22,830 bases of DNA from a virus. The stretch lies in the IMG/VR virus record IMGVR_UViG_3300042892_002359, positions 1-22,830 of that record, one strand, 5' to 3'. Below, one piece after another: positions 2,515-22,305 of this stretch (positions are counted from its first letter, which is position 1; each line of letters opens with the position of its first letter). The position numbers and the translations under genes were made by a program. The notes under the pieces were generated by a model. It did not search any database, had not been told where the DNA came from, and saw only the letters and a list, made by a program, of their open reading frames with translations.

Positions 2515-3600
2515 TTATATATTGTTGTATATATATTGCACAGTCTCTTGATTGATTTTTTCGCTGATTGAATAGAACTTGCCCGATAGCACATGTTCCT
2601 TGTTATGCAAACAACTGGTACGAGTGTTTTCAAAAATTTCCATTGTGCCCATGGACTGAAGGGATTGAATCAATCCAAACATGGCTATCAATCTGTCCAG
2701 GTCAGGTTTGATATTATCATAGGATAAATTTAACCCGTAATCAAATTCAAATCCCAGAGAGCATAATGTACTGTAGGTTTGAAATTGTCCATTGGCAATA
2801 AAAGCAGTTTCTCCCAACAGGCATTTCAATGTTTTTTCTGTAAGGAACGGTCCAGGATAGCTAAAACTCCGTCCATCTGTGTCCCGTCCATCTGAATTAT
2901 AAAATGATTCGTTGGTCACATTTATTGCACAATATTGATACGCCGGGTGATGAAAGTCATTTAATTTTATATGTAATAAATTATTATTGGCCGAGTAGCT
3001 TAACACATCATCGATATATTGACATTCACCTGCATACGTATCAACTTCATTGAGTAACGCATCAAAATCAGAATGACCAGTCCTACTGTCGTTAAGATAT
3101 GTGCGCCAATGAAGATTCTCATTCAGACTGACGATGCTGTCATGGCTGTGATATTTTTTTACAGCAGCCAATGCTATCATTTTGTTAGGTTTAGATATAC
3201 GTACCAACGAACTTATTTTTTTTGTAAGTTGCTTGGTTACCACAGGAGAAAAATTATGCAACATTGCCTGAAGATGATAATGCCAATCTACCCAAGGCAA
3301 CCAATGAACCAATGCCACGGGATCAAAAAAGTCTCCGGGATTTACACAACCATTCAGCACAAAAATAGGTGCATCTACTAACTTTGCTTGTCTGGACAGC
3401 CAATCCAGGTCGTGACCTTCTACCTTTACTATATACCCACGATGTCCGGGTGGCAGATCATCAGAACCAAAAGAGTGTGCATGCCAATAGATATCTAGCC
3501 CAATGAACGACCGTAACAATTGCCATTCATAAAATTCCGTAGCGTCATCTATCACTCCCTGCCGGGTATCAATAAAAAAACCAGAATGTTCTTGCAACAT
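2515..3600 (-). CDS. GT10-like C-terminal motif protein, first gene of accessory operon
   Basis: The C-terminal region carries PGPFLTEKTLKCLLGETAFI, then LCSLGFEFDYGLNLSYDNI. This is the same motif order as in the 332-aa protein of this operon and resembles the TEK motif of GT10 fucosyltransferases. INVTNESFYNSDG just before it resembles the FENS-type lead-in of that family. The N-terminal half (HSGFFIDTRQGVIDDATEFY, with a Trp/His-rich stretch) is not recognised. Start choice: ATG at 3600 (MLQEHSGF) is used. The frame also allows TTG at 3618, giving 367 aa, but that lies at the expected transcription start of the promoter at 3625-3653 and would be leaderless. No good Shine-Dalgarno sequence precedes either. 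A sugar-transfer role is likely but unproven. Confidence 0.6.
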   Translation of the reverse strand: MLQEHSGFFIDTRQGVIDDATEFYEWQLLRSFIGLDIYWHAHSFGSDDLPPGHRGYIVKVEGHDLDWLSRQAKLVDAPIFVLNGCVNPGDFFDPVALVHWLPWVDWHYHLQAMLHNFSPVVTKQLTKKISSLVRISKPNKMIALAAVKKYHSHDSIVSLNENLHWRTYLNDSRTGHSDFDALLNEVDTYAGECQYIDDVLSYSANNNLLHIKLNDFHHPAYQYCAINVTNESFYNSDGRDTDGRSFSYPGPFLTEKTLKCLLGETAFIANGQFQTYSTLCSLGFEFDYGLNLSYDNIKPDLDRLIAMFGLIQSLQSMGTMEIFENTRTSCLHNKEHVLSGKFYSISEKINQETVQYIYNNI

Positions 3601-3624
3601 AGGCAGTATAAGGATCAATCATTG

Positions 3625-5652: not shown

Positions 5653-7026
5653 ATGCCACGCCTAAGCCTATACCGCCCAAATCGAACCCGCGATTACCAA
5701 TTTTTGGATCGCACAATCTCCGAAATGTACACCGTTGGGGGGATGGATATTTTTATCCACAAATACATGGGGCCGCAAACTGGCGGTGAGGATTCGGCAT
5801 TTTCCGGCAACTATGATATCACTCAACCCATATACGAAACCCTGGATCCATTGAACATTCAAGACTTGCTGTTGCTGGAAAACCGTGACAGAATTTACGA
5901 TCAAGATGTGTATTGTATGCGAGGCGTTTACAATCATCAAGACATTGACTTTGACCTAACACAATTTGGACTGTTCTTGAACAACGATACGCTGTTTATC
6001 ACATTCCACTACAATGACATGATTGACACCTTTGGTCGTAAACTCATGAACGGCGATGTGTTGGAAGTGCCCAACTTGAAAGATTATAATCCACTAAACG
6101 CTACCATTCCACAACCGCTGCCCAGATACTATGTGGTTCAAGATGCAGACTTTGCCACAGAAGGCATGAGCCAAACCTGGATGCCACACACCTGGCGTGT
6201 GAAAGCAACACCAATGACCAACAATCAAGAGTTCAAAGACATACTGAAAAAACCAGTTGTGTCAGAAAACATCTGGGACAATGGCAATTTCTATCCCACT
6301 GGCTGGATTACCAACTCGGGTGACGTGTACTATCGTGCTCGACAAAATACTCCTGCTGGTACAGAAATCACCAATACCAATTATTGGGAACTATACAATC
6401 CGGCCACACAAAGTGAAGTGTTTAGTACTCGCACCAAGGACAACCAAATCAACGATGCAATTCTTGCACAAGCCGACGTTGAAGTTCCTGCAAGTGGTTA
6501 CGACACCCAGCCGTTGTATATTTTGCCAACCTTGGCAGATGGACAATCAGCCAATCCTGTATCACTGACTACTGATAGTAATGTCACTGTGGATGGCACA
6601 CAAGGTGGTATGAATATAACTCCTCAAGCTGATGGGTATACTGTTGGGTATCTCACTGGAGATGGTGTACCACCAAACGGGCTGCCAGTTGTTACTGGTG
6701 TACAGTTCCCGTTGAATCCTTCAGCCGGCGACTACTGCTTACGATTGGATTATTTTCCCAATCGTTTGTTCCGTTATGATAGTCGACGTTGGGTCAAGAT
6801 CGAAGACAAGGTACGTACCAATCTCAACAACGGCTCGACCAACGATACTTTGCGCTCCAGCTTTGTCAACAATACATATACAACACGTACCACAGACATG
6901 GGCAATATTCCAAGTCGTCAAAGTCTCAGTGAAATTCTTCGACCACGTGCTGACAACGGAGATCAAAGCGGTGATAAAAATCCCAATCCGTATCCACCGA
7001 CCCAGCCAGGCCAGAAATCGAGTTAA
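5653..7026 (+). CDS. 14: T4 gp14-like neck protein (457 aa, enlarged)
   Basis: This is the neck protein that works with gp13 at the head-tail joint. The N-terminus MPRLSLYRPNRTRDYQFLDR, followed by VGGMDIFIHKYMGP, is the opening I recall for gp14 of aquatic T4-like phages. Residues about 75-170 (DLLLLENRDRIYDQDVYCMR, FGLFLNNDTLFITF, GDVLEVPN) parallel the T4 region around DLIFGEDL, FGMQVQDEVTLSI and GDLIYFP. It is much longer than T4 gp14 (256 aa). The extra sequence includes a chitin-binding-type-3-like segment (DVYYRARQNTPAGTEITNTN followed by YWEL) near residue 230. The C-terminus ends in a Pro/Gln-rich tail. ATG 5653 is chosen over an in-frame TTG at 5614, because the extra 13 residues would be read through the late promoter box. 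The gp15-like gene follows after 3 bp. Confidence 0.85.
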   Translation: MPRLSLYRPNRTRDYQFLDRTISEMYTVGGMDIFIHKYMGPQTGGEDSAFSGNYDITQPIYETLDPLNIQDLLLLENRDRIYDQDVYCMRGVYNHQDIDFDLTQFGLFLNNDTLFITFHYNDMIDTFGRKLMNGDVLEVPNLKDYNPLNATIPQPLPRYYVVQDADFATEGMSQTWMPHTWRVKATPMTNNQEFKDILKKPVVSENIWDNGNFYPTGWITNSGDVYYRARQNTPAGTEITNTNYWELYNPATQSEVFSTRTKDNQINDAILAQADVEVPASGYDTQPLYILPTLADGQSANPVSLTTDSNVTVDGTQGGMNITPQADGYTVGYLTGDGVPPNGLPVVTGVQFPLNPSAGDYCLRLDYFPNRLFRYDSRRWVKIEDKVRTNLNNGSTNDTLRSSFVNNTYTTRTTDMGNIPSRQSLSEILRPRADNGDQSGDKNPNPYPPTQPGQKSS

Positions 7027-7029
7027 ACA

Positions 7030-8430
7030 ATGCAACAATTTTTTTACGATGCGCAAATCCGACGTTTCCTACTACAGTTTACCCGGATCATCAGCAACTT
7101 TCAAATTGAATATGGCAACGAAACAGATGGCGTGAACAATGCTACCTTGATACGTGTGCCTGTTCGTTATGGAGATGCCAGTCGCAACGCACAAGTTATT
7201 ATTCAAGAGAACAGTCGTAACTCAATGCCAGCGTCGCCGCTGATGACATTCTATGTGTCAAGCCTGGATTACGATCGTCCCAGAATGCAAGAGCCTTATC
7301 ATGTGAGCAAGGTCAATGTACGCCAACGCACTTACGACACTGCCACTGAGTCATATGAAACCACACAAGGCAATGCCTTTACCATAGAACGACTCATGCC
7401 TGTGCCTTACAAGTTGGGTATTACACTGGATATTTGGACCTCAAACACCAATCAAAAAATGCAGTTGTTGGAACAACTGCTGACCTTGTTCAACCCCAGT
7501 CTTGAAGTACAAAGCACAGACAACTTTATTGACTGGACCAGTTTGAGCACAGTTGATCTAGAGGCGGTGACCTGGACTTCAAGAACTGTGCCAATTGGCA
7601 CTGAGAATCCCATTGACATGGCCACTATCAAATTCTCATTACCAATTTATATTTCGGCTCCGGCCAAGGTCAAGAAACTGGGCGTGGTTGAACGCATTAT
7701 CATGAGCATGTATGACGCTCAAGGTGATTTGAGTAATGCTGTCACAGACAATGATCTGTTGTTGGGCACCAGAGTTTTAATTACTCCAGGCAATTATGAA
7801 TTGGTAGTGATTGGCAATCAATTGCAGTGTTTACAGCCACGAACTATTGTACCAAATGGCAGCAACAATGACCTTGATCCTGCGTCGATTGTGTCGGGTA
7901 GTAGCCTGCTTTGGCCAGCTGTGATTGGCATGTATGGCACATTACGTCCGGGCATTAGTCAAATTCGTCTGGAACAACAAGATGGATCATTTGTTGTTGG
8001 TACAATTGTGATCAATCCCAACGATGATAGATTTGTATTGTTTGATGTTGATCCCGACACTGTGCCACAAAATACCTTGGATCCCATTGATGCTGTGATC
8101 AACCCCTTGGCCAGTGGTCCTGCCGATGGGCTAGATTCAGCCATAGAAGGTCAACGCTATCTATTGACTGAGGCCACTGGTTCACAAAATAATGTTGGAC
8201 CAGCGTCGGCCTGGGTTGGTGCCAACGGTAGACCCTTGATTGCAGAAGCCAATGACATTATTGAATACACCAATAGTTACTGGCGAGTGGTTTTTAGAGC
8301 CAGTGGACAAGCCGCTGGTCAGTATGTGACAAATATCACTACCAGTATTCAATATGAATGGGATGGTGAAGCCTGGGTCAAGAGTTATCAAGGGGTGTAT
8401 GTTGGAGGCACATGGAGTCTAGTGCTTTGA
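7030..8430 (+). CDS. 15: T4 gp15-like tail completion protein (466 aa, C-terminally extended)
   Basis: The N-terminal ~230 residues match T4 gp15, which caps the tail tube and sheath and docks to the neck. FFYDAQIRRFLLQFTRIISN corresponds to FFYNSSFRRYATLMGDLFSN-like sequence in T4. Matching blocks follow: ATLIRVPVRYGD, PYKLGITLDIWTSNTNQKMQ and LEQLLTLFNPSLEV. T4 gp15 has 272 residues, and here about 220 extra residues follow KVKKLGVVERIIMSMYDAQG. The extension contains beta-rich sequence and, near the end, EGQRYLLTEATG...AWVG...YWRVVFRASG and YEWDGEAWVKSYQG, which resembles DUF2793-type phage domains (tentative). The ATG lies 3 bp after the gp14 stop and the end overlaps the Nudix gene by 19 bp. 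Confidence 0.83.
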   Translation: MQQFFYDAQIRRFLLQFTRIISNFQIEYGNETDGVNNATLIRVPVRYGDASRNAQVIIQENSRNSMPASPLMTFYVSSLDYDRPRMQEPYHVSKVNVRQRTYDTATESYETTQGNAFTIERLMPVPYKLGITLDIWTSNTNQKMQLLEQLLTLFNPSLEVQSTDNFIDWTSLSTVDLEAVTWTSRTVPIGTENPIDMATIKFSLPIYISAPAKVKKLGVVERIIMSMYDAQGDLSNAVTDNDLLLGTRVLITPGNYELVVIGNQLQCLQPRTIVPNGSNNDLDPASIVSGSSLLWPAVIGMYGTLRPGISQIRLEQQDGSFVVGTIVINPNDDRFVLFDVDPDTVPQNTLDPIDAVINPLASGPADGLDSAIEGQRYLLTEATGSQNNVGPASAWVGANGRPLIAEANDIIEYTNSYWRVVFRASGQAAGQYVTNITTSIQYEWDGEAWVKSYQGVYVGGTWSLVL

Positions 8431-8852
8431 AGGCAGTTGGTGTGTGGTTCCGCAGCCGGGACACCAAACGCTATCTATATCTCTTGAGAAACGATGCCAA
8501 ACATCCAGGATCTTGGGGCCTACCCGGCGGCAAAATTAAAACAGGCGAAACACTGTTGGGTGGTATGGAACGTGAGTGTATGGAAGAATTGGGATTCTTT
8601 CCCACTTACTTGAGACTGGTACCTCTGGAAAAATTTACTTCAGCAGATTTAGCCTTTGAATATCACACCTGGATTTGTGTTGTGGATACTGAATTCACTC
8701 CCAGACTAAACTACGAACACCTGGGCTACGCCTGGATTGATGCAGGTACCTGGCCTCGACCCATGCATCCTGGATTGTGGAATACCATGAACATTGATGC
8801 AGTGCAACAGAAGATCATGTTGGTTGAGCAGGATTTTTTAAGTAGAAATTAA
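8412..8852 (+). CDS. Nudix hydrolase (146 aa)
   Basis: Nudix enzymes hydrolyse nucleoside diphosphates linked to another group (X), using metal ions held by the Nudix box. A complete box is present: G40, five residues, E46, seven residues, R54-E55, then E58-E59-x-G61 with a following Phe. WGLPGGKIKTGETLLGG is the core. The length and single-domain layout are usual for the family. KAVGVWFRSRDTKRYLYLLR at the N-terminus is the first strand pair. The start ATG has a perfect GGAGG (8404-8408) three bases upstream, inside the gp15 gene, so the two are coupled. The end overlaps the convergent oxygenase-like gene by 4 bp. The substrate is unknown. Nucleotide-sugar or ADP-ribose type substrates would fit the glycan-related neighbours (inference). 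Confidence 0.92.
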   Translation: MESSALKAVGVWFRSRDTKRYLYLLRNDAKHPGSWGLPGGKIKTGETLLGGMERECMEELGFFPTYLRLVPLEKFTSADLAFEYHTWICVVDTEFTPRLNYEHLGYAWIDAGTWPRPMHPGLWNTMNIDAVQQKIMLVEQDFLSRN

Positions 8853-10069
8853 TCAAAAAAGAATATTTGCCACAGGCGACAATTTTGCATGTTGTAGCCA
8901 AAATACTCATTTGCACTGTGTAGATATCCTGCATTGAAAATCAACAAACGATTGTATACATTGCCCAACACATCCACTGGTTCAAAAATTGTTCTATCAA
9001 GATTTTTTGATCCTGGTCTAAATGCCTGCTTGATACCCGCATGATCTCTATGTCGTATGCCAGTATCTTTCAGTGCAAAAGTTGATGTACCTGTGCTGTA
9101 AGGAGCATCAGGAGTGAGATAAAGCATGCCAGCCCACTTTTGATCGTCACAGTGATGTGCCAAGGGTTCACCTTCTGTACAATACTGAAAGCGGCCGTTC
9201 ATGCCGTGCTCTTCCCAACGAGTGATTTTTTCTCCCATGATGCGTTCAAATTCTTGTTTGAGTCCTGGGAATAGAAATTGTTGTTTGGTGCGACTACCTA
9301 TGTAGTATCGGTCAATACCACCATGGTCGTATTCCTGTTCCAAAGCCAAGGCTCGTATTGCGTCAGGATCTTGATAAAAGTTGTCCACAATCCAAATGCC
9401 TTTGGTGTAGTTTTTGTTGACTTGCTCGCATGATCTATCCACTGTAGAATTGGCCACTATAGGTATCACTGCAGGTTTTTTTGGTCGGATCACTGGCTGA
9501 GACAATTTGACTAATTCTGTGGGCCACCCACAAGTTTTTAAATTGTTGTCAACTGCGGTAAGATGATTTTGATCAAGATCATGATTGAGTTTGAGATCTT
9601 GCATGATCTGTCGAGATTCTTCTCTATGGCCTACCCACCATGCTGCCACACCCTTTTGAAACAACAAAGCATAAGATCCAGGGTACCCCATGTGAGTTGG
9701 CAAAGGTGACAGATCAAGTTGGGCCTGGGCCAGGCCAAAACAGGCCATGGTGTAACTGTTTTGCCAATTTTGTCTTGCTTCGTGATACTTGCTCAATAAA
9801 AAATATGCCTCGGGACGATGCATCATGAGCACAATGGCTTTTTCTAAAATGGTTTTTTCAGTGTCATCCCTTGTGCGTTGCGCGGCAAAACAGATGGCCA
9901 TGCGTAACAAGGCTTCGTACTGTTGGATGTCACTGGTTGATCTTTCAGCAGCCCTGAGATAAAAAGATATAGCGGCACCTGTTTGTCCCATGTCTTCATA
10001 TTCACAGCCCAGAGAAAAATTTGCCCTGGCATCTTCTTGATTGTGGATGTAGTTTATCAACTGTTTCAT
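8849..10069 (-). CDS. TPR-like N-terminus fused to 2OG-Fe(II) oxygenase-like domain (406 aa)
   Basis: Residues about 10-185 are helical repeats of tetratricopeptide type (ANFSLGCEYEDMGQTGAAIS, AYFLLSKYHEARQNWQNSY), probably for protein contact. Residues about 225-406 look like a 2-oxoglutarate/Fe(II) dioxygenase of the DUF6445 kind: GIWIVDNFYQDPDAIRALAL, then H306-x-D308 in LAHHCDDQKWAGMLYLTP, distal H384 in AGYLHSANEYFGY and R398 in CRLWQIFFFD. These supply the two-His-one-carboxylate metal site and an Arg for 2-oxoglutarate. The strand spacing fits a double-stranded beta-helix fold. The ATG overlaps the stop of the preceding three-domain gene (ATGA), implying coupled translation and probably a shared pathway. 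Hydroxylation of a sugar, peptide or small molecule is possible, but the target is unknown. Confidence 0.78.
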   Translation of the reverse strand: MKQLINYIHNQEDARANFSLGCEYEDMGQTGAAISFYLRAAERSTSDIQQYEALLRMAICFAAQRTRDDTEKTILEKAIVLMMHRPEAYFLLSKYHEARQNWQNSYTMACFGLAQAQLDLSPLPTHMGYPGSYALLFQKGVAAWWVGHREESRQIMQDLKLNHDLDQNHLTAVDNNLKTCGWPTELVKLSQPVIRPKKPAVIPIVANSTVDRSCEQVNKNYTKGIWIVDNFYQDPDAIRALALEQEYDHGGIDRYYIGSRTKQQFLFPGLKQEFERIMGEKITRWEEHGMNGRFQYCTEGEPLAHHCDDQKWAGMLYLTPDAPYSTGTSTFALKDTGIRHRDHAGIKQAFRPGSKNLDRTIFEPVDVLGNVYNRLLIFNAGYLHSANEYFGYNMQNCRLWQIFFFD

Positions 10070-12681
10070 GGGTAAAATTTCACAGGTTGCGGTGCAGGAT
10101 GTGCACCATTTTCACAACGAGTACAAATGTCATAGCATGTTTGTGCTTGTGGTATCACTTGCTCATATGTTTGTGTTTTGAGGTTGCCAATGATGTTGTT
10201 CAGGCCATAGTCCATGCAACACAGACTCACATCGCCATTGGGCAACAACACATTGTGGTAGAGATGTTCTACACAGCCACACGTGCGAACACCATCTGTG
10301 TGGATTTTTTCTTGCCAACTGCTGGCCAATGAGGCCAATTCTGGTTTGAGCACTGCTTCTCTGCTGAGGTTGCCGGCTCTGCCCCACATGATGGGTTTGG
10401 GTGCCCAGTCAAACAAGTGACGCACACTGTCATGCACTTGGTGTCCCATGTTCATCACATAAAAATTCTGTATTCTATCTCTATTTTGGCTCAGCCACTC
10501 CATGCTTCGGATAAATCCTGGAGTTATAGGGTGTCTGGCCAATAGTTCACTGTCTGGCAAGTGCAGTGTGAATCCGCCGTTGGGGCCTCCAGCAAAAGGC
10601 ACATGTGCAATGCGTTCAAGATCTGCAACGCTCAATCCAACCCCTGTGGTAAACACACTCACAGGATGTCCACGATCATGTGCCAACAGCAACATGTCGG
10701 TGCAGTTCTTGTTCATCCAAGGTTCTATAAAACCTGAGAAAGTTATGCGCACTTCAGGTGGCACTGTATCAATCATGGTAGCAAAACTGTCAACCGTCAT
10801 GATTCTTTCGCCTTGATAGGCCTGTTCCAACACACGTTGTGGACAAAACACACAGTCTACTACACAACCTTTTTCTGGCACAATGGTAGTTATTTCAAGA
10901 GTAGGCCAAGGGAATGTGTTAATTTTGGTTTTTTGCTCCAATGGCACACGATTGTCAATGTAGATGGTTATGGCCATGTAGTGTTCAATGAACCAGTCGC
11001 TCCAGAGATCATGTTTGATATCCACATTGTCCATGCTGAATATTCTGTGACTCACCATGTTGGCCAAGTAGAGATCACGAAATTTTCTAAATTTTGCCTT
11101 GAGTTCAGGTGTGTTGAGATGAAACTCACCTGTGATTTTTTTCACGCTGCGTTGAATCCACTCAAAGTTCTTTTCATTGAATATGTCGTACTCGCCACCT
11201 TCACAATCGGTTTTCAAGAAATCAATCTGTTGTATTTTGTGTTCACGGATCAAGGTATCAAATGCAATGGTTTCCATTATTGAGCCATCCGTGCCGTCGG
11301 TTATGGCCTGTTTGGTTTCATCGTACAGACCGGCCACATAGTTTGTGCCATCCTGGGCACCCAGGGCCTTGTTTAACACCACAAAAGGTACGCCGGTGGC
11401 GGCTAAATTTTTCTCTAGAGTTTGATAAAATTCCAATTCGGGCTCAAGACAGATCAACTGTTTTGGTTTTTTATGTGCCACACTCCAGGAGAATGGACCC
11501 ACACTCGCTCCAACGTCAAGCACTGTGTCTCCAGGCTCAACTTCAAAAAACTTTTCGTATACCTTGTCCACAAATACTTCTTTGCTGACTGTGTTGAAAA
11601 ACCAAGTGTTGCGAGCCATCTTGCCCCAGTCAAAGTTTTTGGCTGTGTCATTGATATCAGAAAACCAAGGTGTGTGTGAGGGCCATACAATTTGATCCAC
11701 CAGGTGTCGGGGCATTTTTAAAATAAATGCTGAATTGTCTTGGAATCCAAAACTCAACATCAAATGATTGTCATGCCAGGCGGCACCACAACAGAACTCA
11801 ATGTCTGCTCCCATAAAACTAAAGGGATCGGTATATCTTACCATGTTCCAATCCTGATCCCAAACCACCAAGCGGTGTCTATACACAGCGTCTTTTTCAC
11901 CAGCTGGGGATTTGAACAAGTCCACTTCGTGTGTGCAGGCCAGGTAGTAGTCGCCATAGGGTATCACGTGACTGCTGCCTCTAAAGGCCGGCACATTTGC
12001 CACGCTTTTGTTTTGGTCCAATGCCACAGTCACACATGTGTTGGATACCTCATCATATTGCACAACTTCAGTGGGATTGCTCCATTTTATCCATTGACCC
12101 GCATGATCCAATATGGGCATCCAGTTTTTCTCACAGTAGGTGTCGTCGAGCCCAGGTGCTGGCACACGAGTCCTTGCAATTTCTGTCACTGCATGATCGG
12201 TCACCTCCAGCTCACTCAGTTCCATACGACCTTGGCCGTTGGTTGTGGTATCTCTTCGCACACCACTGATGTATAGGCGTTGGTTCCAACGAAACAGTCT
12301 GGCATCTTCAAGTCCCACAAATGTCCAAAGAGGTTCTTGATCAAATCGGGAGGTGTCGATCTTTTGACAGGTTTTGATTGACAAGTCTGCATTCAAGGTC
12401 AACAGATAATTCCAGGTGCGCAGATGCGGATCGTTTTCGGGGTGCAGGTACTGCAAGGGTCCAAATCTGTGCTGGAATCGTTTGTTTTCAGAATGATACA
12501 AGGTGTAATTCACATGTCGTAAAATACACAAAATTTCATTGCCGTCAACATACACAGACGGATTCATAAGGCCGGTGCCATTGGTATCTTTGGCCGGAAT
12601 AATCAGCGGATGTATGCTTCCGCCAGCATCAAGTGTGGATTTAACCAGCCCTTGAGTAGATATTTGAGTGGATATTGTCAT
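10066..12681 (-). CDS. Three-domain fusion: beta-propeller (GH130-like), FkbM methyltransferase, radical SAM/SPASM-like
   Basis: Residues about 20-350 form a glycosidase-type five-bladed propeller, with LWTFVGLEDARLFRWNQRLY, FRGSSHVIPYGDYYLACTHE and IEFCCGAAWHDNHLMLSFGF as blade motifs. Residues about 355-580 form an FkbM methyltransferase, with SAM motif GDTVLDVGASVGPFS near residue 386 and the signature IDFLKTDCEGGEYDIF near 492. Residues about 590-871 form a radical SAM domain with C606-VVD-C610-VF-C613, and a C-terminal Cys-rich region (CGCVEHLYHN, DVSLCCMDYG, CYDICTRCENG) like SPASM/twitch auxiliary cluster domains. All three domains lie in one uninterrupted 871-codon frame. The ATG at 12681 has no strong Shine-Dalgarno sequence, and a palindrome lies just upstream. 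Methylation plus radical chemistry on a glycan or peptide is the likely job. The substrate is not visible. Confidence 0.85.
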   Translation of the reverse strand: MTISTQISTQGLVKSTLDAGGSIHPLIIPAKDTNGTGLMNPSVYVDGNEILCILRHVNYTLYHSENKRFQHRFGPLQYLHPENDPHLRTWNYLLTLNADLSIKTCQKIDTSRFDQEPLWTFVGLEDARLFRWNQRLYISGVRRDTTTNGQGRMELSELEVTDHAVTEIARTRVPAPGLDDTYCEKNWMPILDHAGQWIKWSNPTEVVQYDEVSNTCVTVALDQNKSVANVPAFRGSSHVIPYGDYYLACTHEVDLFKSPAGEKDAVYRHRLVVWDQDWNMVRYTDPFSFMGADIEFCCGAAWHDNHLMLSFGFQDNSAFILKMPRHLVDQIVWPSHTPWFSDINDTAKNFDWGKMARNTWFFNTVSKEVFVDKVYEKFFEVEPGDTVLDVGASVGPFSWSVAHKKPKQLICLEPELEFYQTLEKNLAATGVPFVVLNKALGAQDGTNYVAGLYDETKQAITDGTDGSIMETIAFDTLIREHKIQQIDFLKTDCEGGEYDIFNEKNFEWIQRSVKKITGEFHLNTPELKAKFRKFRDLYLANMVSHRIFSMDNVDIKHDLWSDWFIEHYMAITIYIDNRVPLEQKTKINTFPWPTLEITTIVPEKGCVVDCVFCPQRVLEQAYQGERIMTVDSFATMIDTVPPEVRITFSGFIEPWMNKNCTDMLLLAHDRGHPVSVFTTGVGLSVADLERIAHVPFAGGPNGGFTLHLPDSELLARHPITPGFIRSMEWLSQNRDRIQNFYVMNMGHQVHDSVRHLFDWAPKPIMWGRAGNLSREAVLKPELASLASSWQEKIHTDGVRTCGCVEHLYHNVLLPNGDVSLCCMDYGLNNIIGNLKTQTYEQVIPQAQTCYDICTRCENGAHPAPQPVKFYP

Positions 12682-12767: not shown

Positions 12768-13487
12768 TCACAGTCCGTATCTGCTTTTTACCGCATTATA
12801 ATTTTGTGTGATTTCAATGGTGGACAACGCACGATTATAAACCAACACCTGGGAAATCCTTGCTGTGGCAAATTCACCAGCATCTGGATCACCACCAACA
12901 AAAAACGGCATGGCAGTCACTCTCAAATCTGGTTGATCAGCGTCTCGCAAGCCCACTTGTGTGCCATTTACATACATCTTCATGTTGTTGGTTCCTGCTT
13001 GGGTACCATCGTAAATCACACATATATTCTGCCACACGTTGAGTGTGAACGCCTGAAATATTTCTGCAGGATACATCTCAAATTTTTGAGTGGTCAATTT
13101 GTAAAATCTCAGAAGGCTGGTTCCTCTATAGCCCATGAGAATAAAACTGTCTGAATTTCCTGTTGGATATGCCCAGATGTTCCAGGTAAATGCAGTGGAC
13201 GCCGTTTGTATCGGCGTCTGATAGGTAAAACTGGTTCTCTGTGATGCACCACTTCCAAAACTAAAATAACTTGCATCTCCAGCAGATGTAAATGCGGGAC
13301 TATTGACCAGTGTTCCGTTGTTGCCGTTGCCGCTGATGTCATTCCAGGCAGTGCCTGAGCCAGAATAACTGGAGGTCTGTCCAGCGTCAATATACACCTG
13401 CAACCCTGTGAGAACTATGTCAGGACCAGGAGTATTTTGTATGGTGATTCCTGGACCTATGGTGATTCCTGGTCCTATTGTGGGCAT
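12768..13487 (-). CDS. LamG/concanavalin A-like lectin domain protein (239 aa)
   Basis: Residues about 25-235 read as a ConA-like (LamG/laminin-G-3) jelly-roll. LQVYIDAGQTSSYSGSGTAW, followed by NDISGNGNNGTLVNSP, is the classic opening. FTWNIWAYPTG, FTLNVWQNICVIYDGT, MKMYVNGTQVG and FATARISQVLVYNRALSTIE give the remaining conserved strands and the closing NRALS motif. The N-terminus has a short repeat (IGPGITIGPGITI). Such domains bind carbohydrate and are frequent in phage fibers and other surface proteins. The ATG lies 6 bp after the stop of the Peptidase_G2-like gene, so the two are one transcript. It is likely to be a virion adhesin at or near the long fiber, but free-standing use cannot be excluded. 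Confidence 0.82.
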   Translation of the reverse strand: MPTIGPGITIGPGITIQNTPGPDIVLTGLQVYIDAGQTSSYSGSGTAWNDISGNGNNGTLVNSPAFTSAGDASYFSFGSGASQRTSFTYQTPIQTASTAFTWNIWAYPTGNSDSFILMGYRGTSLLRFYKLTTQKFEMYPAEIFQAFTLNVWQNICVIYDGTQAGTNNMKMYVNGTQVGLRDADQPDLRVTAMPFFVGGDPDAGEFATARISQVLVYNRALSTIEITQNYNAVKSRYGL

Positions 13488-13493
13488 GGCGTG

Positions 13494-14003
13494 TTAGACT
13501 TTGCCTACAACAATTTCTATAGTGCCTGACTCGCCCACAAAGTCTTCCAGGGCTTTGCCAATAACTGTGCCCACAGCAGGGGTAGCACATGCTTGTGCGT
13601 GGCCGTTGCCCGCAGAAATCATCATGGCACCTTTGGTCACAGGTCCAATCACACAGGTTGGTACTCTGCCTGCCAAAGCCAGTGTAACTATGTGTGTGCC
13701 TTGCACTGAACTGTTCATCACATGTGCAGGATTTGTACTCACTACTCCTGCCACACATGTGCTGCTGGATTGAGTGCTCAAGGTCACTTCGTGGTGCCCC
13801 CCAAAATCCAGCACCGTGCCAGGCACATATTCAGCATCAGCCACGTACATTTCTGCCAAGTCAGCATATTGTGCTGATGTGGCCTTGATAAATGCTGTGT
13901 TAAAATAAGCAGTGGCGTTGCCAATATTACCTACTCCATTGCCGGCATTGTTTAATATAGCAGGTACAGTTGCTCCTATGGTTCCATCTAGTGTAATTGG
14001 CAT
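13494..14003 (-). CDS. Peptidase_G2-like fiber-associated protein (169 aa)
   Basis: The centre carries YADLAEMYVADAEYVPGTVL, then GGHHEVTLSTQSS, CVAGVVSTNPAHVMNSS and a closing VIGKALEDFVGESGTIEIVV. This DLAE-Y-(A/P)GTV...ST.PA..MN pattern is one I recall from C-terminal domains of phage fibers and bacterial surface proteins annotated as Peptidase_G2 (intramolecular-chaperone or autoproteolytic type). Here it forms its own small gene directly after the giant fiber, with an N-terminal part (AILNNAGNGVGNIGNATAYF) resembling the repeats at the end of that fiber. The ATG has AAGGA (14012-14016) at good spacing and a clean late promoter box upstream. It may cap, trimerise or process the fiber (inference). 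Confidence 0.72.
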   Translation of the reverse strand: MPITLDGTIGATVPAILNNAGNGVGNIGNATAYFNTAFIKATSAQYADLAEMYVADAEYVPGTVLDFGGHHEVTLSTQSSSTCVAGVVSTNPAHVMNSSVQGTHIVTLALAGRVPTCVIGPVTKGAMMISAGNGHAQACATPAVGTVIGKALEDFVGESGTIEIVVGKV

Positions 14004-14048: not shown

Positions 14049-17000
14049 TCATATGATTGAAAACACACTTGTTGACGGTATAGTCAGGGTCAATCCTGAC
14101 GGTATCACTAGATTACTAAAAGCCACGCCGTTGGTGTTGGCTGACTGTGTGACATTGCCTAGTAGGCTTTTTGGTGTGGTAAGTATGCCTGCATCTACAA
14201 ATCCCGCAGTGGCCAAATTGCCACCCGTAATGGTGCCTGTGACCGAAACAACGCCAGTGACAAATTCTCCTGTGGTTGCAAACACAGCCACATTTGACGT
14301 TCCACCTATGCCAACTGTGACATTGCCGCCTGAACTGACCACAGTGACATTGGAGGTTCCGTTGTTGATATTGCTGGACGATGTGGAAACTCCAGTCAGT
14401 TGTGATCCGTTACCAAAATAGTAGTTGCCAGAGACATTTCCTGTGACACTTAGACGTGTGGCAATGTTGACATTGCCCGTGCCATTTGGAGTCAACACAA
14501 TATTGGCATTGGCACCAGATGTTTGAATATCTAACTGAGCTGAATCAACAATGGCACCCGACAATATTAGGTTGCCACCTGTGATATTACCAGTGGTAAC
14601 TGTCAGACTTGAGCCAGTAATGCCAGCACCTGTCACCGCGCCTGACACAGATATACTCGAACCTGTCATCACGCCACCCACAACTGATGCACCTGTTACT
14701 ATACCGGTTACTGATGCGGATGAGCCAGTGATTACGCCACCTACTACTGATGCGGCTGTGACTCGTCCAGTTACACTCAAATTGGCGCCAGTGTTGACAT
14801 TACCGGTGCCATTTGGAGTCAACACAATATTGGCATTGGCACCAGATGTTTGAATATCTAACTGAGCTGAATCAACAATGGCACCCGACAATATTAGGTT
14901 GCCACCTGTGATATTACCAGTGGTAACTGTCAGACTTGAGCCGGTAATTGCTCCACCTGTTATAGCGCCAGTGGCTGAAATTAATCCAGCTGTGCGTAAA
15001 TTACCAGCTTGAACGTTTGCAGTAGCACTAAGCGTAGTTCCAGAAATTACGTTTGCGCCTGAAATATTACCGCCAGATCCTGAAGTAATAATATTACCGC
15101 CAGTGATGTTACCAGTGGCACTTACTACCCCGCCTGTGTTGATGTTACCACCTGTGATGTTACCTGATACAGATACCGTAGTACCTGTGTGTGTGGTAGC
15201 ATTGACATTGGCTCCGCCCAAAACATTGCCACCTGTGATGTTACCTGACAATGACAATGCACCTGTAGCAGCATTAAATGTAAATTTTGTGGTTGTTACA
15301 TTGGCAACTTGATTACTGCCGTTAGCACCTACCATGACTGGATACAAAGTTGTAGTAGATGTATTGTCTGTGGCAAGAATGATATTACTAGGTCCTGCAA
15401 TACCTTGTGTGCCTTGAATGCCTTGTGCTCCAGTTGTGCCCTGTGTGCCAGTGGCGCCCTGTGTGCCAGTTGCGCCTTGTGCCCCTGTCGCTCCTTGTGT
15501 ACCAGTTGCCCCTTGAGTACCGGTTGTCCCTTGTGCGCCAGTTACCCCTTGTATGCCTTGAGTGCCTTGAGTACCGGTTGTCCCTTGTGCGCCAGTTACC
15601 CCTTGTATGCCTTGAGTGCCTTGAGCGCCGGTTGCGCCCTGTGTGCCGGTAGCACCTTGAACGCCTTGTGTGCCTTGGGTGCCAGTTGCGCCTTGAGCAC
15701 CTGTAGCACCTTGAGCGCCTGTCACTCCTTGAATACCTTGTGTTCCTTGAGCACCAGTTGTGCCTTGAGCACCTGTCAATCCCTGAATGCCTTGAGTGCC
15801 TTGGGTGCCGGTAGCACCTTGAGCGCCGGTTGTGCCTTGAGCACCTGTAGCACCTTGAGCGCCGGTTGCGCCCTGTGTACCACGATCGCCAGTTCTGGAA
15901 AAATCTGTAGCAAGATCGGCAGCATTGGTAGGTAGAGAACCTGACACATAAGTTACAGTGATCTTGTAATAACCAACGGCTGAAGTTACCGCGGTAACAT
16001 TCCAGACATTTACTGTGGTTCCAGAAGAGGATCCTGAGGTAATATATAGATAGCCTTCGCTGGTAGTATTGGTTGAATCATCCCAGGTGTCATACCAGCC
16101 AGTTTGAGTATTAGATAAGGAATCTGTATTGTCAATAAAGATTTGTGTTACTGAGCCTATGGTAGCATTATTATATCTAATTACACCTGTGCCAGGATCA
16201 CTGTCAGTTATGGTTGTACTAAATGTATAAGGCACACCACCTCTATTGCCAGTTGTTCCTGTAGTACCTTGTGTGCCAGTTGTGCCTTGAGCACCGGTTG
16301 CGCCTTGAGCACCGGTCACTCCTTGAATGCCTTGAGTGCCTTGGGTGCCGGTAGCACCTTGAGCGCCGGTTGTGCCTTGAGCACCTGTAGCACCTTGTGT
16401 GCCAGTTGCGCCTTGGGTACCGGTGGTGCCCTGTGTGCCAGTAGTACCTTGGGTGCCGGTTGTGCCTTGAGCACCTGTAGCACCTTGAGCGCCTGTCACT
16501 CCTTGAATACCCTGTGTGCCTTGAGCGCCGGTTGTGCCTTGAGCACCTGTAGCACCTTGAGCGCCAGTTACTCCTTGAATGCCTTGTACCCCTTGAGCAC
16601 CAGTTGCACCTTGAGCGCCAGTTACTCCTTGAATGCCTTGTATTCCTTGTGAGCCTGTCACTCCTTGAATACCCTGTGTGCCTTGGGTGCCGGTTGTGCC
16701 TTGGGTGCCGGTTGTGCCCTGAGTACCAGTCACACCCTGAATGCCTTGAATGCCTTGGGCGCCGGTTGTGCCTTGAGCACCAGTAACACCTGAAACTAAT
16801 GCTAGAGATATTGCTAAATTATTAGCAAATCCAGTAGTACCTGTACCACCAGATGAGGACAAACTGGCTGGTATTTCAGTAAACGTAGGGTTTTGTGTAA
16901 TTGATGATGTGATGGTCCAGATTTGGTAATTGTCGCTATTGCCCGAGTCTTGAATAATAAAGGTTTCAGTGGTCTGCAAAGTGGCCAAGAAAATGTCAAT

Positions 17001-20000
17001 ATCAACACCTGCTGTGGTCAAGTGGCTTACATTGACCTGTGTGGCTGATGTTTGTGTGGCATTGTTCCAGATCAAGAAACCACTGCCTGGATCTCCCGAT
17101 GTCACACCAGTTTTGGCTTGGTATGCAAAGAAACTGCTAGATGATCCTGTAGTACCTTGAGTTCCTGTAGTGCCTTGAGCACCGGTTACTCCTTGAATGC
17201 CTTGAGCACCAGTTATACCTTGGATACCTTGGGTACCAGTAGTGCCTTGAACGCCTTGAACGCCTTGGGTACCAGTAGTGCCTTGGGTACCAGTAGTGCC
17301 TTGTGTACCAGTTGCGCCCTGTGTGCCGGTTACTCCTTGAATACCCTGTGTGCCTTGAGTGCCGGTCGTGCCTTGAGTGCCGGTTGTGCCTTGAGTGCCG
17401 GTTGTGCCTTGAGCACCTGTCACTCCTTGAATGCCTTGGGTGCCTTGAGTGCCGGTTGTGCCTTGTGTGCCGGTTGTGCCCTGTGTACCTGTAGTGCCCT
17501 GTGTACCTATCTCACCTTGTGTGCCGGTTGTGCCTTGAGCACCGGTGGTGCCCTGTGTGCCAGTAGTACCTTGTGTGCCAGTTGCGCCTTGGGTACCGGT
17601 GGTGCCCTGTGTGCCAGTAGTACCTTGGGTGCCGGTTGTGCCTTGTGCGCCAGTGTCTCCTTGGGTGCCGGTTATACCTTGTATGCCTTGGGTGCCCTGT
17701 GTACCTGTAACTCCTTGAACGCCTTGGGTGCCCTGTGTACCAGTTTCACCTTGTGCGCCAGTGTCTCCTTGGGTGCCGGTTATACCTTGTATGCCTTGGG
17801 TGCCCTGTGTACCTGTAACTCCTTGAACGCCTTGGGTGCCCTGTGTGCCGGTTGTGCCCTGTGTACCTATCTCACCTTGGGTACCTTGGGTGCCGGTTAT
17901 ACCTTGAACTCCTTGTGCTCCAGTTATGCCCTGGGCACCTGTCACTCCTTGAATGCCTTGGGTACCTTGAGTGCCGGTTGTGCCCTGTGTGCCAGTTGCA
18001 CCTTGTGTGCCGGTTGTGCCCTGTGTGCCGGTTGTGCCCTGTGTACCAACACCTCCTTGCACTCCTTGCACTCCTTGAGCGCCTGTCTCACCTTGAGCTC
18101 CTGTCACTCCTTGAATGCCTTGAACGCCTTGAACGCCTTGTGTTCCAGTGTTACCTTGAATACCTTGTACTCCTTGAGCACCTGTCTCACCTTGAACGCC
18201 TTGAATGCCTTGTGCACCTGTAGTACCCTGTGTACCTGTCTCGCCTTGCGTACCTGTCTCACCTTGAATGCCTTGGGTGCCCTGTGTACCTGTAGTGCCC
18301 TGAGCACCAGTCACTCCTTGAACGCCTTGAGTACCAGTAGTACCTTGAGCACCAGTAGTGCCTTGAGTGCCGGTTGTGCCCTGTGTACCAGTTTCACCTT
18401 GGGTGCCAGTTTCACCTTGGGTGCCGGTTATGCCTTGAACGCCTTGAGTACCAGTAGTACCTTGAGCACCAGTAGTACCTTGAGTGCCGGTTGTGCCCTG
18501 TGTACCAGTTTCACCTTGGGTGCCAGTTTCACCTTGGGTGCCGGTTATGCCTTGAACGCCTTGAGTACCAGTAGTACCTTGGGTGCCGGTTATACCTTGA
18601 ACGCCTTGAACGCCTTGTATGCCTTGAGCACCAGTAGTACCTTGAGCACCAGTGATGCCTTGAACACCAGTGATGCCTTGTATGCCTTGAGCACCAGTAG
18701 TACCTTGAGCACCTAGCGTTCCGCCTAAATTCACAGTCCAACTTGAGTAAGTACCTGATCCTGTCACAGTCACAACATTAACCACTAATGCTCCTGTGCC
18801 TGTATTGTACGAAGTCACAGTACCTTCCATTACGTTGGAGGCATCAAAGGCAATAATTGCTGTTTGTCCGGGAGTATAGTTTAATCCTGTGCCAATTGTG
18901 AGTGTTTTTACTGCAACACTTATTGTCAAACTAGTGGCACTGGTTGTTTCGTATCTATCGCCTAACCCTTGTACACCTTGAGTGCCTTGTGTACCCTGGA
19001 CACCTTGAACGCCTTGTGTGCCTTGAGCACCAGTTGTGCCTTGTACGCCTTGTATGCCTTGAGCACCTTGAGCACCAGTTTCGCCCTGAACACCTTGTGT
19101 GCCTTGAACACCTTGTGTACCTGTTTCACCTTGAACTCCTTGTACACCTTGAGCACCAGTTTCGCCCTGAACACCTTGTGTGCCTTGAACACCTTGTGTA
19201 CCTGTTTCACCTTGAACTCCTTGTACACCTTGAACGCCAGTTATACCTTGTGTACCTTGAGTGCCAGTTATACCTTGTGTGCCTTGAACACCTTGTGTAC
19301 CTGTCTCACCTTGAACGCCTTGAACGCCTTGTGTGCCTTGAGCACCTGTTGTGCCCTGAACGCCTTGTATGCCTTGAGATCCAGTAGCACCTTGGGTGCC
19401 AGTGACTCCCTGAATACCCTGAACGCCTTGAACACCAGTGATGCCCTGTATACCTTGAGTGCCGGTTGTGCCCTGTGTACCAGTTATGCCTTGGACTCCT
19501 TGGGTACCAGTTGTGCCTTGGGTACCAGTTGTGCCTTGAGCACCTGTTATGCCCTGAACACCTTGAGCCCCTGTTACCCCTTGAATGCCTTGAACGCCTT
19601 GTGTGCCTTGAGCACCTGTTACCCCTGAAACCAAGGCCAATGACACAGCCAAATTATTGGCAAAACCAGTAGAGCCTGTGCCGCCAGATGTGGACAAACT
19701 GGCTGGAATTTGAGTAAATGTCGACCCAAGAGTGATTGGGGCGGTGATGGTCCAGGTTTGATAATTGTCACTATTGCCCGAGTCTTGAATAATAAATGAT
19801 TCAGTAGTCTGCAAAGTGGCCAAGAAAATATCAATGTCCACTCCTGCTGTGGTCAAGTGACTGACATTGATCTGTGTGGCTGATGTTTGTGTGGCATTGT
19901 TCCAGATCAAGAAACCACTACCTGGATCGCCTGATGTCACACCAGTTTTGGCTTGATATGCAAAGAAACTGCTAGATGATCCTGTAGTACCTTGGGTGCC

Positions 20001-21665
20001 TGTGGTGCCTTGAACGCCCTGCACCCCTTGAGCTCCTGTAACTCCTTGAATTCCTTGAATGCCTTGAACGCCTTGAATGCCTTGAACGCCTTGAGCACCT
20101 GTTGTACCTTGAACGCCTTGAGTTCCTGTGGTTCCTTGCGTACCTGTCACTCCTTGAATGCCTTGGGTTCCTGTGGTTCCTTGCGTACCTGTCTCACCTT
20201 GAACGCCTTGGGTGCCTTGTGTACCTGTAGTGCCCTGAGCACCAGTCACTCCTTGAACGCCTTGTGTTCCTTGAACTCCTTGAATTCCAGTAGTACCTTG
20301 GGTGCCCGTAGTACCCTGTGTGCCTGTCACTCCTTGAATGCCTTGAGTGCCTTGAGTACCGGTGGTACCTTGTGTGCCAGTTGCGCCTTGAGCTCCAGTT
20401 ATGCCTTGGGCACCTGTCACTCCTTGGACGCCTTGAGCTCCTGTCACTCCTTGAATGCCTTGTAAACCTTGAATGCCTTGTGTTCCAGTTATTCCTTGAA
20501 CGCCTTGAATGCCTTGAATGCCTTGTGTTCCAGTTATCCCTTGAATGCCTTGAGTACCTGTCTCACCTTGGATGCCGGTGGTACCTTGAACGCCTTGCGT
20601 ACCTGTTTCACCTTGAACTCCTTGTACACCTTGAACTCCTTGAGCACCAGTGTCGCCTTGAATGCCAGTAGTACCTTGAATGCCTTGGGCGCCTTGAGCA
20701 CCTGTTGTGCCTTGTGTTCCGGTGTTGCCTTGTGTTCCTGTCTCACCCTGAATGCCTTGAGCACCAGAACTGAGCGAATTGAAAGTGATTGTGTTTGTGA
20801 CTGTGTTGGCAGTCATAACAATGTTTGCGCCAGGGACAAAGGTTAGAGTCGATGACGTGTTGGCACTCAAATTGGCCGTATTTGCAACCACATTTAAAAA
20901 TGCATTGGTGGTGGCTACCCCAGTCAGTAGTGAACCGTTTCCTTGAAAAAATGCACCAGTTATGTTGCCTGTGGCAGAAACGCTGGACGCTGTGATATTT
21001 CCACCCAGGGTAGATGATCCAGTTCCAGAAAATACTGTTTGCCCACCAACTGAATTGGTAATTGTCAGCGCAGAGGCGTTGGCACTGATTGTACTATTGC
21101 CCAAATTGATGGTGCTGCCACTGAGATATAAATCATTGAATCGTTGTGTAGCAGTGCCAAGATTATAAGCATTGTTTGCAGACGGAACAATATTGGCAGC
21201 TACTGTTACATTTGAAGAATTAAAAACAGCCACATTGGCAGTTCCATTTACACTAACTGTTACAGGAGCATTTGAATCTGCTATCCGCACATTGCTGTTG
21301 GCATTGAGAATTTGACTGCCAGCACTGACTGTGATTCCTGTCAGTGCTGAACCATTGCCTTGATAATAGGCCGCATGCACTGTGTCGTATCTGTAGTCAG
21401 GATTTCCCAGATCAAACACTGCATCTGTGGAAGGACGCACACTACTGTTGGTCACAACATTACCAATTCCGTTGCCCTGCAGAATTAAATTGCCGTTGGT
21501 ACCGTTGATTGAGATGGTGTTGTTGGCTATCGCAACATTGCTGCCAACAGGACCTGCTGTGTAAACTTCTGTGAAATTGTCATTTACCGCAGTAAAGGCT
21601 TCACGCAGGCCCTCACCGGTGCCATCATTGGCAGTGGTGCCCACATCGATTATCTGTTGTGTCAT
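14049..21665 (-). CDS. Giant collagen-like tail fiber protein (2538 aa)
   Basis: The N-terminal ~300 residues begin [20 protein letters not shown] (then [10 protein letters not shown]), an opening I recall from phage fiber proteins, followed by beta-rich repeats with [12 protein letters not shown] and [12 protein letters not shown]. Five collagen-like Gly-X-Y stretches follow, at about residues 301-562, 681-899, 986-1507, 1626-1806 and 1929-2090 (some 450 triplets). They are interrupted by four globular inserts: A1 (563-680), B (900-985), A2 (1508-1625) and C (1807-1928). The C-terminal ~450 residues are repeats of the [10 protein letters not shown] type. The triplets contain no Pro, Lys or Arg, and Y is almost always Gln or Thr. 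This should be a trimeric fiber hundreds of nanometres long if fully helical. A one-mismatch late box and AGAGGA precede ATG 21665. There is no frameshift across 7.6 kb. Confidence 0.9.
14481..14615 (-). repeat. 135-bp perfect direct repeat, copy 1 (fiber C-terminal region)
   Basis: Identical base for base to 14808-14942. It encodes the [20 protein letters not shown]...[14 protein letters not shown] segment of the fiber. The distance between copies is 327 bp, a multiple of three, so the frame is kept. Confidence 0.9.
14808..14942 (-). repeat. 135-bp perfect direct repeat, copy 2 (fiber C-terminal region)
   Basis: Second copy of the segment at 14481-14615, with no difference seen. Complete identity, including synonymous sites, suggests a recent duplication or gene conversion. 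Confidence 0.9.
15511..15618 (-). repeat. 54-bp tandem repeat in collagen region
   Basis: Two adjacent identical 54-bp units (15511-15564 and 15565-15618), equal to six Gly-X-Y triplets each. Confidence 0.8.
16791..17144 (-). repeat. Globular insert A2 (duplicate of A1) within the fiber
   Basis: Encodes a 118-residue non-collagen domain starting [20 protein letters not shown]. It differs from insert A1 at 19626-19979 at about twelve residues, and the DNA is also closely similar. It carries an SDPG/GDPG...NNAT...TQI pattern related to insert C, a domain type I recall from other phage collagen fibers. Confidence 0.85.
17641..17856 (-). repeat. 108-bp tandem repeat in collagen region
   Basis: Two adjacent 108-bp units (from 17641 and 17749), twelve triplets each. 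They are identical over about the first 98 bp and then diverge. They encode the segment with the GDTGAQG triplets. Confidence 0.75.
18316..18549 (-). repeat. 117-bp tandem repeat in collagen region
   Basis: Two adjacent 117-bp units (18316-18432 and 18433-18549), thirteen triplets each, differing at one base that I can see. The beginning of a third copy follows from 18550 for about 30 bp. Confidence 0.82.
19066..19227 (-). repeat. 81-bp perfect tandem repeat in collagen region
   Basis: Two adjacent identical 81-bp units (19066-19146 and 19147-19227), nine triplets each. Confidence 0.85.
19626..19979 (-). repeat. Globular insert A1 within the fiber
   Basis: The partner copy of insert A2, 118 residues, ending [20 protein letters not shown] where the collagen triplets resume. 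Both copies begin after GTTG and end before GVTGAQG, so the duplicated block includes its collagen junctions. Confidence 0.85.
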
Positions 21666-21720: not shown

Positions 21721-22305
21721 CTAAATTTCTTTGGACTCCAAACGCCGTTGAAAGGTCACAATGTCCACATGTGCCAGGTTAGGCACCGCCTGCAGATCAC
21801 GTATTTCAGCAGTGGTTTCTCCAGTCACTCGGAAAAAACTTGTTTTGGAAAAATCCTTGGCAATTTGTTTGATTTGCCGAGTCCAGTTGCCAGTAAATGT
21901 AGGATTGGCCGAACTTTTTTTGTAGAATTCTGTGTCAGCATAACAGTTGTTGAATCTGCCTGTGCGATTCGGGCCCATGTCAAACCCTATCAAATACACA
22001 GCTCTTGCCCCGTCCAGTGCAGCTTGTGCCACTGCCACTGGTCCGGAACTGTATCCAAAATACTGCTGAGTAATACGCAAGGCACCTGCATCTGGCAAAG
22101 GTTTACGAGTATAATGGATATGGCTTCGGCTGTAGCCTTCGTGTTGAATACGTTCGCTTATGGGTGCATCTGTGCTGATCAGCACGTCAGGTTCAAACTC
22201 TCGATAGATAGCGTTACAGCCATACACACGCCCAAGCGTTTTTAGCAAGTTCAAATCAATTTGTCTACGGCTTATGCCGTTACCCAATACAAATGCCGCG
22301 GTCAT
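21721..22305 (-). CDS. DUF115/MAF-like putative sugar-modification protein (194 aa)
   Basis: The N-terminus [20 protein letters not shown], then [20 protein letters not shown], resembles the nucleotide-binding opening of DUF115 / motility-accessory-factor proteins and related small glycosyltransferase-like enzymes (GNGPS..D...N..Y..F.PD....D pattern, recalled). The middle segment [20 protein letters not shown], followed by IGFDM, is a typical Rossmann-type helix and strand, as in the sialyltransferase-like and DUF115 folds. The full length is close to that of the minimal domain. ATG 22305 has GGGAGG seven bases upstream, but that sequence forms the 3' arm of a hairpin. The gene lies between a virion-type protein and the giant fiber, so modification of a virion or host glycan is possible. 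The assignment is tentative. Confidence 0.6.

Follow-up and report, generated by a model that had tools for sequence, protein, structure and literature searches.

Viruses that modify their own virions with enzymes they encode are already known among the chloroviruses, mimivirus and some mycobacteriophages, according to the excerpts of the literature on which the comparisons made here are based. The chlorovirus PBCV-1 encodes A064R, which combines two glycosyltransferase domains with a methyltransferase domain in a single chain and builds an O-methylated end of the virus's own capsid glycan, and mimivirus encodes L230, a collagen lysyl hydroxylase-glucosyltransferase that modifies a collagen-like protein encoded by the virus (PMC9614988). 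In mycobacteriophages, the virions carry glycans on capsid and tail-tube subunits (as cited in PMC12619734; PMC11256854).

The locus analysed here belongs to an aquatic phage with T4-like tail genes, represented by the 22.8-kb virus record IMGVR_UViG_3300042892_002359; its full length of 22,830 nucleotides is called the window. A gene on its minus strand (10066..12681) encodes a protein of 871 amino acids in which the open reading frame (ORF) map, Pfam, NCBIfam and structural models reveal a GH130/GT108-type propeller, a methyltransferase of the FkbM family and a radical SAM/SPASM region. We propose, with about even confidence, that this fusion is part of a modular cassette that would decorate the collagen-like fibre of the same phage with a methylated and radically modified glycan, both the target and the chemistry being putative.

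Three predicted enzyme domains in one protein

An intact frame of 871 codons had been described at this position, with no mention of its strand, in a first-pass annotation made by a model from the letters alone, and both its existence and its three enzyme-type domains were confirmed by Pfam and NCBIfam profiles, motifs and structure matches. The propeller fold is formed by residues 1-332, and the domain was delimited to residues about 10-334 (11680..12654, minus strand) by a family hidden Markov model, an AlphaFold model and matches in the PDB. When the window protein was compared with Pfam, the propeller gave no match, PF04041 (GH130) included, and therefore the fusion was not filed as a member of the GH130 family. 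The propeller alignment has 55 members, of which 20 matched PF04041 at E values up to 0.1 (best 4.9e-5), and the propeller at locus L010 scored 16.7 bits against a cut-off of 26.

The AlphaFold model of the propeller (predicted local distance difference test, pLDDT, 92.7) was closest to GH130 structures, with Z scores of 20.5-23.9 in VIA-align, compared with 18.2 at most for GH43. The Leishmania mannosyltransferases MPT-1, MPT-2 and MPT-4, of family GT108, had Z scores of 17-18 in the same comparison and were placed above GH43 by Foldseek, whose top matches include a mannoside synthase and GDP-mannose-dependent mannosyltransferases. The glycosidase-type propeller of the first-pass annotation was thus upheld and made more specific, as the models assign to this domain the fold of GH130/GT108 mannoside phosphorylases and mannosyltransferases.

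In the GH130 enzyme Teth514_1789, the residues named for the mannose subsite are Asn28, Asp98 and Asp287 (PMC4264767, in the portion available). In weak profile matches (E values of 0.12 and 0.4), these residues aligned with N40 (12562..12564), with D126 of a GLEDAR motif as the Asp of subsite -1 (12304..12306) and with D315 as the second subsite Asp (11737..11739), all on the minus strand. The numbering was consistent, as all three chain positions of Teth514_1789, taken to be chain 7fip from the title of the structure, were offset by 11 from the published numbers, and those of Teth514_1788 by 1 at two of three positions. N40, D126 and D315 are invariant in 107/107 propellers, that of the window included, and so is E125, the Glu that precedes the subsite Asp.

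A Glu at this place is shared with the GH130_NC group, which includes phosphorylases (PMC4264767, same portion), and the structures nearest to the model are mostly phosphorylases. Both points would fit a mannoside phosphorylase that supplies sugar phosphate to the infected cell and to which the fused domains are unrelated. However, a fusion with methyltransferase and radical domains, a constant TPR partner and fibre genes as neighbours do not fit energy metabolism, and we regard such a role as quite improbable.

The FkbM methyltransferase region spans residues about 345-585 (10927..11649, minus strand) and was detected well above the cut-offs of both PF05050 (residues 389-536; E 4.2e-11, 43.7 bits against 22.7) and NCBIfam TIGR01444 (E 1.2e-20, 74.4 against 37.7). 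It is followed by a radical SAM core match at residues 604-693 (10603..10872, minus strand; Pfam, NCBIfam and Foldseek) and by a SPASM match to PF13186 at residues 803-843 (10153..10275, minus strand), which scored marginally above its cut-off (21.7 against 21.5) and was above it as well in the five radical SAM-bearing relatives scanned. The CX3CX2C motif formed by C606, C610 and C613 (10843..10866, minus strand) and the Cys-rich tail behind it are present as annotated. Among the 72 radical SAM domains compared, including that of the window and two plasmid homologues, this motif is kept in 70, the other two being L007, where the contig end cuts the domain, and L013, which has CX3CX3C; the SPASM pattern P[N/D]GxxxxCCxD is kept in 71.

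No solved structural relative of the radical SAM domain was found by profile search at an E value of 0.001. A likeness to the nucleotide-sugar enzyme DesII was obtained by three routes, phmmer (E 0.59), NCBIfam (E 1e-5, far under the cut-off of that family) and Foldseek (E 2.2e-5, rank 44), but it is weak and not decisive.

Other genes of radical SAM type were also observed. In relatives without the cassette, ORFs that look like radical SAM/SPASM proteins by eye lie close to neck and tail genes (L183 6454-7410, L185 4973-6067 and L221 3309-4397, all on the minus strand). The L013 domain (5989-6729) is a stand-alone homologue near terminase and head genes in a virus record whose host is listed as Methanomicrobiales. 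The two plasmid homologues, with about 30% identity, are found on rhizobial plasmids (L015 7941-8795 and L016 7842-8801) in nodulation and nitrogen-fixation surroundings, with nodD2, nifQ and nifS in the former and nifB and nifZ in the latter, and give no functional clue.

Shuffled modules and a coupled partner gene

The relatives were collected as 168 sequences, the window included, and grouped into 122 clusters, in which members have an exact stretch of 400 bases in common. The propeller was confirmed in at least 595 viral contig stretches among the 600 matches listed. Full-length copies of the fusion with 96% (L002) and 68% (L003) identity exist, and a chance ORF can therefore be excluded. 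The view that no named system has this order of domains stood insofar as none was found in the open-licence part of PubMed Central (PMC); the order itself is not singular, since it recurs in about three dozen of the fetched viral loci, and with so many copies the uniqueness of the fusion was rejected.

The search for the same domain order, which the first-pass annotation had suggested, also revealed loci in which these domains are divided over adjacent genes or joined in other combinations. Six modules recur: the propeller, the TPR region, two types of FkbM domain (one of them termed FkbMA), the radical SAM/SPASM region and an oxygenase-like domain. Across the 122 clusters, the propeller-FkbM-radical SAM arrangement was found in 32 intact ORFs, that of the window included, and in six truncated at contig ends. 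The propeller stands alone in 64 distinct ORFs and the radical SAM domain in 15, and the two are fused directly in six (seven when counted by representative loci). Arrangements built on the partner modules comprise TPR-FkbM-radical SAM (4 distinct ORFs), TPR-FkbMA-FkbM-radical SAM (4), TPR-FkbMA (39), TPR-oxygenase (25), TPR-FkbMA-oxygenase (21) and the oxygenase-like domain by itself (23).

In the propeller tree, a single clade (86 support, without a star) takes in 31 of the 32 three-domain rows, together with forms that lack FkbM (L106 and L109) and with propellers alone (L025, L026, L028 and L030), and propeller-radical SAM fusions appear again at two distant places (L089, and L150 with L157). 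L106 is 97% identical to L104 over the remainder of the protein, and L109 is likewise 95% identical to L108. FkbM is also the least conserved domain of the intact fusions other than L002, with 47-64% identity to the window, compared with 61-70% for the propeller and 63-72% for the radical SAM domain. Modules that are joined and separated again and again in this way are what one would expect of enzymes acting in one pathway. A further combination was noticed at L009 (6168-9425), where an ORF of 1085 amino acids combines a TPR stretch with three or more stretches of methyltransferase type, including a tandem pair of window-type FkbM domains.

The partner gene of the window (8849..10069, minus strand; ORF map, Pfam and PHROGs) encodes TPR repeats and a DUF6445 domain with the residues of a 2-oxoglutarate-Fe(II) oxygenase, and its start shares four bases with the stop of the fusion gene. 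In 100 of 109 clusters, the propeller gene is directly followed by one for a TPR protein, and in 98 of these 100 the gap between both is of 10 bases or less, overlaps counted. In the other nine clusters, the TPR region is found within five genes (six clusters) or in the same ORF (one), no downstream gene is in view (one) or the TPR region is absent (L014). DUF6445 is a Pfam family with no function attached, in which HxD...H...R is found by a strict pattern in 62 of 67 partner domains, the remaining five keeping the H, D, H and R by eye. Three of the ten recurring neighbour families scanned are related to sugars, namely GT2, GT17 and a cytidylyltransferase with a domain of the mannose-phosphate isomerase type.

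Two other ideas on the origin and role of these genes were rejected. Scanned for the propeller, genome_contigs yielded six confirmed loci, all in metagenome-assembled genomes or bins and possibly viral, and a host origin was discarded. A role in anti-phage defence was discarded as well, since its matches were weak and lay over generic methyltransferase and radical SAM stretches.

Co-occurrence with collagen-like tail fibres

The proposed target, a collagen-like tail fibre of 2538 amino acids, is encoded at 14049..21665 on the minus strand (ORF map and Gly-X-Y count), and its longest unbroken Gly-X-Y run extends for 176 triplets rich in Thr and Gln. Between this gene and the fusion gene lie those for a small protein (13494..14003) that belongs by neighbour clustering to a family shared with fibre C-termini and has a weak tail-fibre match, and for a protein with a laminin-G/concanavalin-like domain detected with Pfam (12768..13487), so that all three are upstream of the fusion and on the same strand. 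When collagen-like ORFs were defined by at least eight perfect Gly-X-Y triplets, one was found directly upstream (-1) of the propeller gene in 18/37 fused loci and in 15/61 other loci, whereas at the downstream positions +1 to +10 such ORFs made up 0/231 and 6/344 genes, respectively.

Control loci were fetched through the neighbouring gene for the sheath stabiliser, a T4-like tail protein (7030-8430 in the window, from a scan for domains of the Pfam/PHROGs type), including three scans queried with the stabilisers of cassette-bearing loci. Cassette rows came mostly from cassette scans and cassette-free rows mostly from stabiliser scans, and the result is thus a case-control set and not a random sample. 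The final comparison used one locus per cluster and 90 of the 191 stabiliser clusters, those with at least 3 kb of DNA on the fibre side; clusters with less DNA were left out, as were those with a TPR part and the propeller not in view.

A collagen-like ORF was present in 19 of the 24 loci with the cassette, compared with 1 of the 66 without it (Fisher 5.5e-14, relatedness ignored), and limits of 2, 5 and 7 kb agreed. One locus scored as collagen-positive, L316, has eight triplets, which may be due to chance. The first stabiliser scan alone, with 36 loci of at least 3 kb, allowed no comparison, since neither cassette nor collagen was present in any of them; merged with the cassette loci, it gave 17/21 against 0/28 at 3 kb. 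In the stabiliser tree, seven independent pairs could be drawn on starred branches, in which collagen followed the cassette in 5.9, opposed it in 0.0 and was unchanged in 1.1 on average (sign test, median p 0.031, range 0.0156-0.125). The window phage itself is nested in a cassette-free stabiliser clade (support 99, starred) and has both the cassette and the collagen-like fibre. That relatives of the fusion and collagen-like fibre genes mostly come and go together suggests that the phage decorates its own collagen-like fibres.

The same position beside the fibres could also be explained if the cassette altered a surface glycan of the host, blocking superinfection or opening the envelope, and sat there as in a hot spot for accessory genes. 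Such genes often gather in tail-fibre regions, surface polysaccharide clusters commonly contain FkbM proteins and glycosyltransferases, and two window ORFs (333-1331 and 2515-3618, minus strand) look like glycosyltransferases by eye (C-terminal part), with no match in Pfam or PHROGs. However, the association is with collagen-like fibres and not with fibres in general, as all six cassette-free loci with fibre-side DNA inspected by eye carry large ORFs of fibre type there, with a different kind of repeat, and no membrane partner was recognised in the maps, in which most neighbours are nameless and no search for membrane proteins was run. An action on the host surface is therefore considered unlikely.

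In the 43 loci with at least 20 triplets near the cassette, the repeats contain 0.10-1.16 Thr and 0.00-0.03 Lys per triplet and mostly little Pro. The Thr threshold of 0.1 per triplet is low, and these figures come from cassette loci, cassette-free collagen-like fibres being nearly absent from the set. The repeats are also highly regular, with Gln at 0.64 of the Y positions and Thr at 0.37 of the X and 0.24 of the Y positions.

Such regularity would also suit enzymes that act on the fibre polypeptide, where the radical SAM and FkbM domains would carry out an epimerisation or C-C change and the N- or O-methylation of Gln or Thr, as happens in certain natural products of ribosomal peptide origin, and the propeller would tag the product with a sugar. 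SPASM is common in radical SAM enzymes that modify peptides, and Asn N-methyltransferases of the FkbM family are known in proteusin pathways. However, Pfam listed five families for the fusion, none of them a peptide-recognition domain of the RRE or PqqD type, and the weak family matches of its radical SAM domain are mixed, with a nucleotide-sugar enzyme among them. This alternative to the modification of a glycan is considered rather improbable. The DNA bases of the phage or a secreted small molecule are far less credible substrates: DNA glycosylation by phages exists (PMC12619734, in the excerpt used), but the association here is with structural fibre genes, and the maps, where most neighbours are nameless and no dedicated search was made, revealed no recognisable partner that modifies DNA.

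Several observations weigh against the decoration of a fibre glycan by this cassette. On the side of the enzymes, the Z scores do not favour a transferase, because the Leishmania enzymes come no closer to the propeller than the best GH43. Of the profile searches proposed as a check in the first-pass annotation, those for FkbM and SPASM succeeded, but radical SAM PF04055 remained below its curated cut-off in the window protein (22.2 against 29.5), exceeding it in two of the five radical SAM-bearing relatives scanned (L009, 29.6; L011, 35.9). In NCBIfam, spiro-SPASM outscores DesII for this domain and a tungsten-cofactor maturase also matches. The whole-chain prediction, also proposed there, gave good individual domains (mean pLDDT 80.9) with uncertain relative positions (predicted template modelling score, pTM, 0.45), and PHROGs labels the oxygenase-like domain of the partner as 'minor coat protein'. 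On the side of the fibre, a collagen-like ORF is among the mapped neighbours in 50 of the 122 clusters, many contigs ending near the cassette. No such ORF was found in five of the 24 cassette loci compared (L131, L083, L099, L101 and L337), nor in S-SCSM2R (L012) from four genes upstream to five genes downstream of the propeller. S-SCSM2R is a Synechococcus phage whose record states a laboratory host, and it has propeller and TPR-FkbM-oxygenase genes. An earlier and smaller tree test with three independent pairs was not significant, and the joint occurrence could reflect the transfer of both as one physical block.

Proposed role and comparison with known systems

In a scheme of glycan decoration, the fusion would be the main enzyme of the cassette. 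The propeller would take a mannose-like sugar from a donor, either a sugar phosphate or a nucleotide sugar, and attach it through a beta link, the FkbM domain would O-methylate a hydroxyl of that sugar, and the radical SAM/SPASM region would introduce a further change at an unreactive sugar carbon, for example a dehydration, an epimerisation or an oxidation. The partner coupled by translation may grasp the fibre repeats through its TPR region and add a hydroxyl group with its oxygenase-like domain. Attachment would probably take place at the many Thr of the Gly-Thr-Gln and Gly-Thr-Thr repeats, where Thr is the hydroxyl residue that abounds and hence the best candidate for the anchor. The data establish the domains with their motifs, the predicted fold, the conserved pairing of the genes, the shuffling of modules and the co-occurrence with collagen-like fibres. 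The donor sugar, the linkage, the order of the steps and the acceptor residue are what we infer, and the phage might benefit in adsorption, fibre stability or protection. It is plausible, as suggested earlier, that the fusion assembles a single modified sugar or peptide stepwise, with the neighbouring collagen-like fibre now as its probable target.

A broader proposal, which we consider possible but doubtful, is that exchangeable modules of four kinds (glycosyltransferase, methyltransferase, radical SAM and 2-oxoglutarate oxygenase) modify the Thr/Gln-rich Gly-X-Y repeats of tail fibres and give them groups that no collagen is known to have, on a glycan or on the backbone. If this were true, the variable set of modules would make the fibre chemistry particular to each phage.

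Some other features of the window were noted. An ORF of 387 amino acids (1343-2506, minus strand) resembles an amidinotransferase by eye, matches only PHROG 25854, whose label carries no function, and had no match in NCBIfam. A protein of 194 amino acids (21721-22305, minus strand) has a very weak match to the sialyltransferase CST-I (E 0.058), and a gene similar to it by eye lies beside cassette-free fibres at L193 (14618-15202). Neither known RNA families, at the gathering threshold, nor tRNAs were found in the window.

Exact-word searching of open-licence PMC returned no paper that describes this fusion or a cassette of phages directed at collagen-like fibres. The only phage records of the collection in which the propeller exceeds 45% identity are S-SCSM2R and the metagenome-assembled Synechococcus phage DSL-LC02 (OR032571), a distant one being held by DSL-LC01. 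DSL-LC02 has the same cassette at 51% identity and beside a gene for a collagen-like protein, although split into a propeller gene, a TPR-FkbM-radical SAM gene and an oxygenase-like gene. Its record labels genes as 'beta-mannosyltransferase' and 'FkbM family methyltransferase', and in the available main text of the corresponding paper mannosyltransferase, FkbM, radical SAM and collagen are absent as words.

GH130 mannoside phosphorylases and the GT108 enzymes MPT-1, MPT-2 and MPT-4 of Leishmania share the predicted propeller fold, and their subsite residues align with the invariant ones, but identity is only 8-15% and the propellers described here are found in viral contigs, fused to or paired with methyltransferase, radical SAM, TPR and oxygenase-like modules. 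A064R is similar by analogy as a single multi-domain viral glycan enzyme with a methyltransferase, whereas its domain 1 is of GT-A type, its substrate is the N-glycan of the capsid protein of an algal virus and the excerpt mentions no radical SAM domain. As with L230, the cassette is encoded together with a collagen-like virion protein, both in the window and in the 19 collagen-positive cassette loci of the stabiliser comparison; L230 acts on Lys, which the phage repeats nearly lack, and neither FkbM nor radical SAM appears in what is excerpted on it. Mycobacteriophage glycosylation has other targets, and no fusion of methyltransferase and radical SAM domains is mentioned in the excerpts. A064R, L230 and mycobacteriophage virion glycosylation are the closest in logic, none of them having this set of domains in the excerpted texts. 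Compared with them, a radical SAM domain and a GH130-type propeller acting on collagen-like phage fibres would be a new and seemingly widespread branch of virion modification, and would give a function to a mostly nameless family of enzymes.

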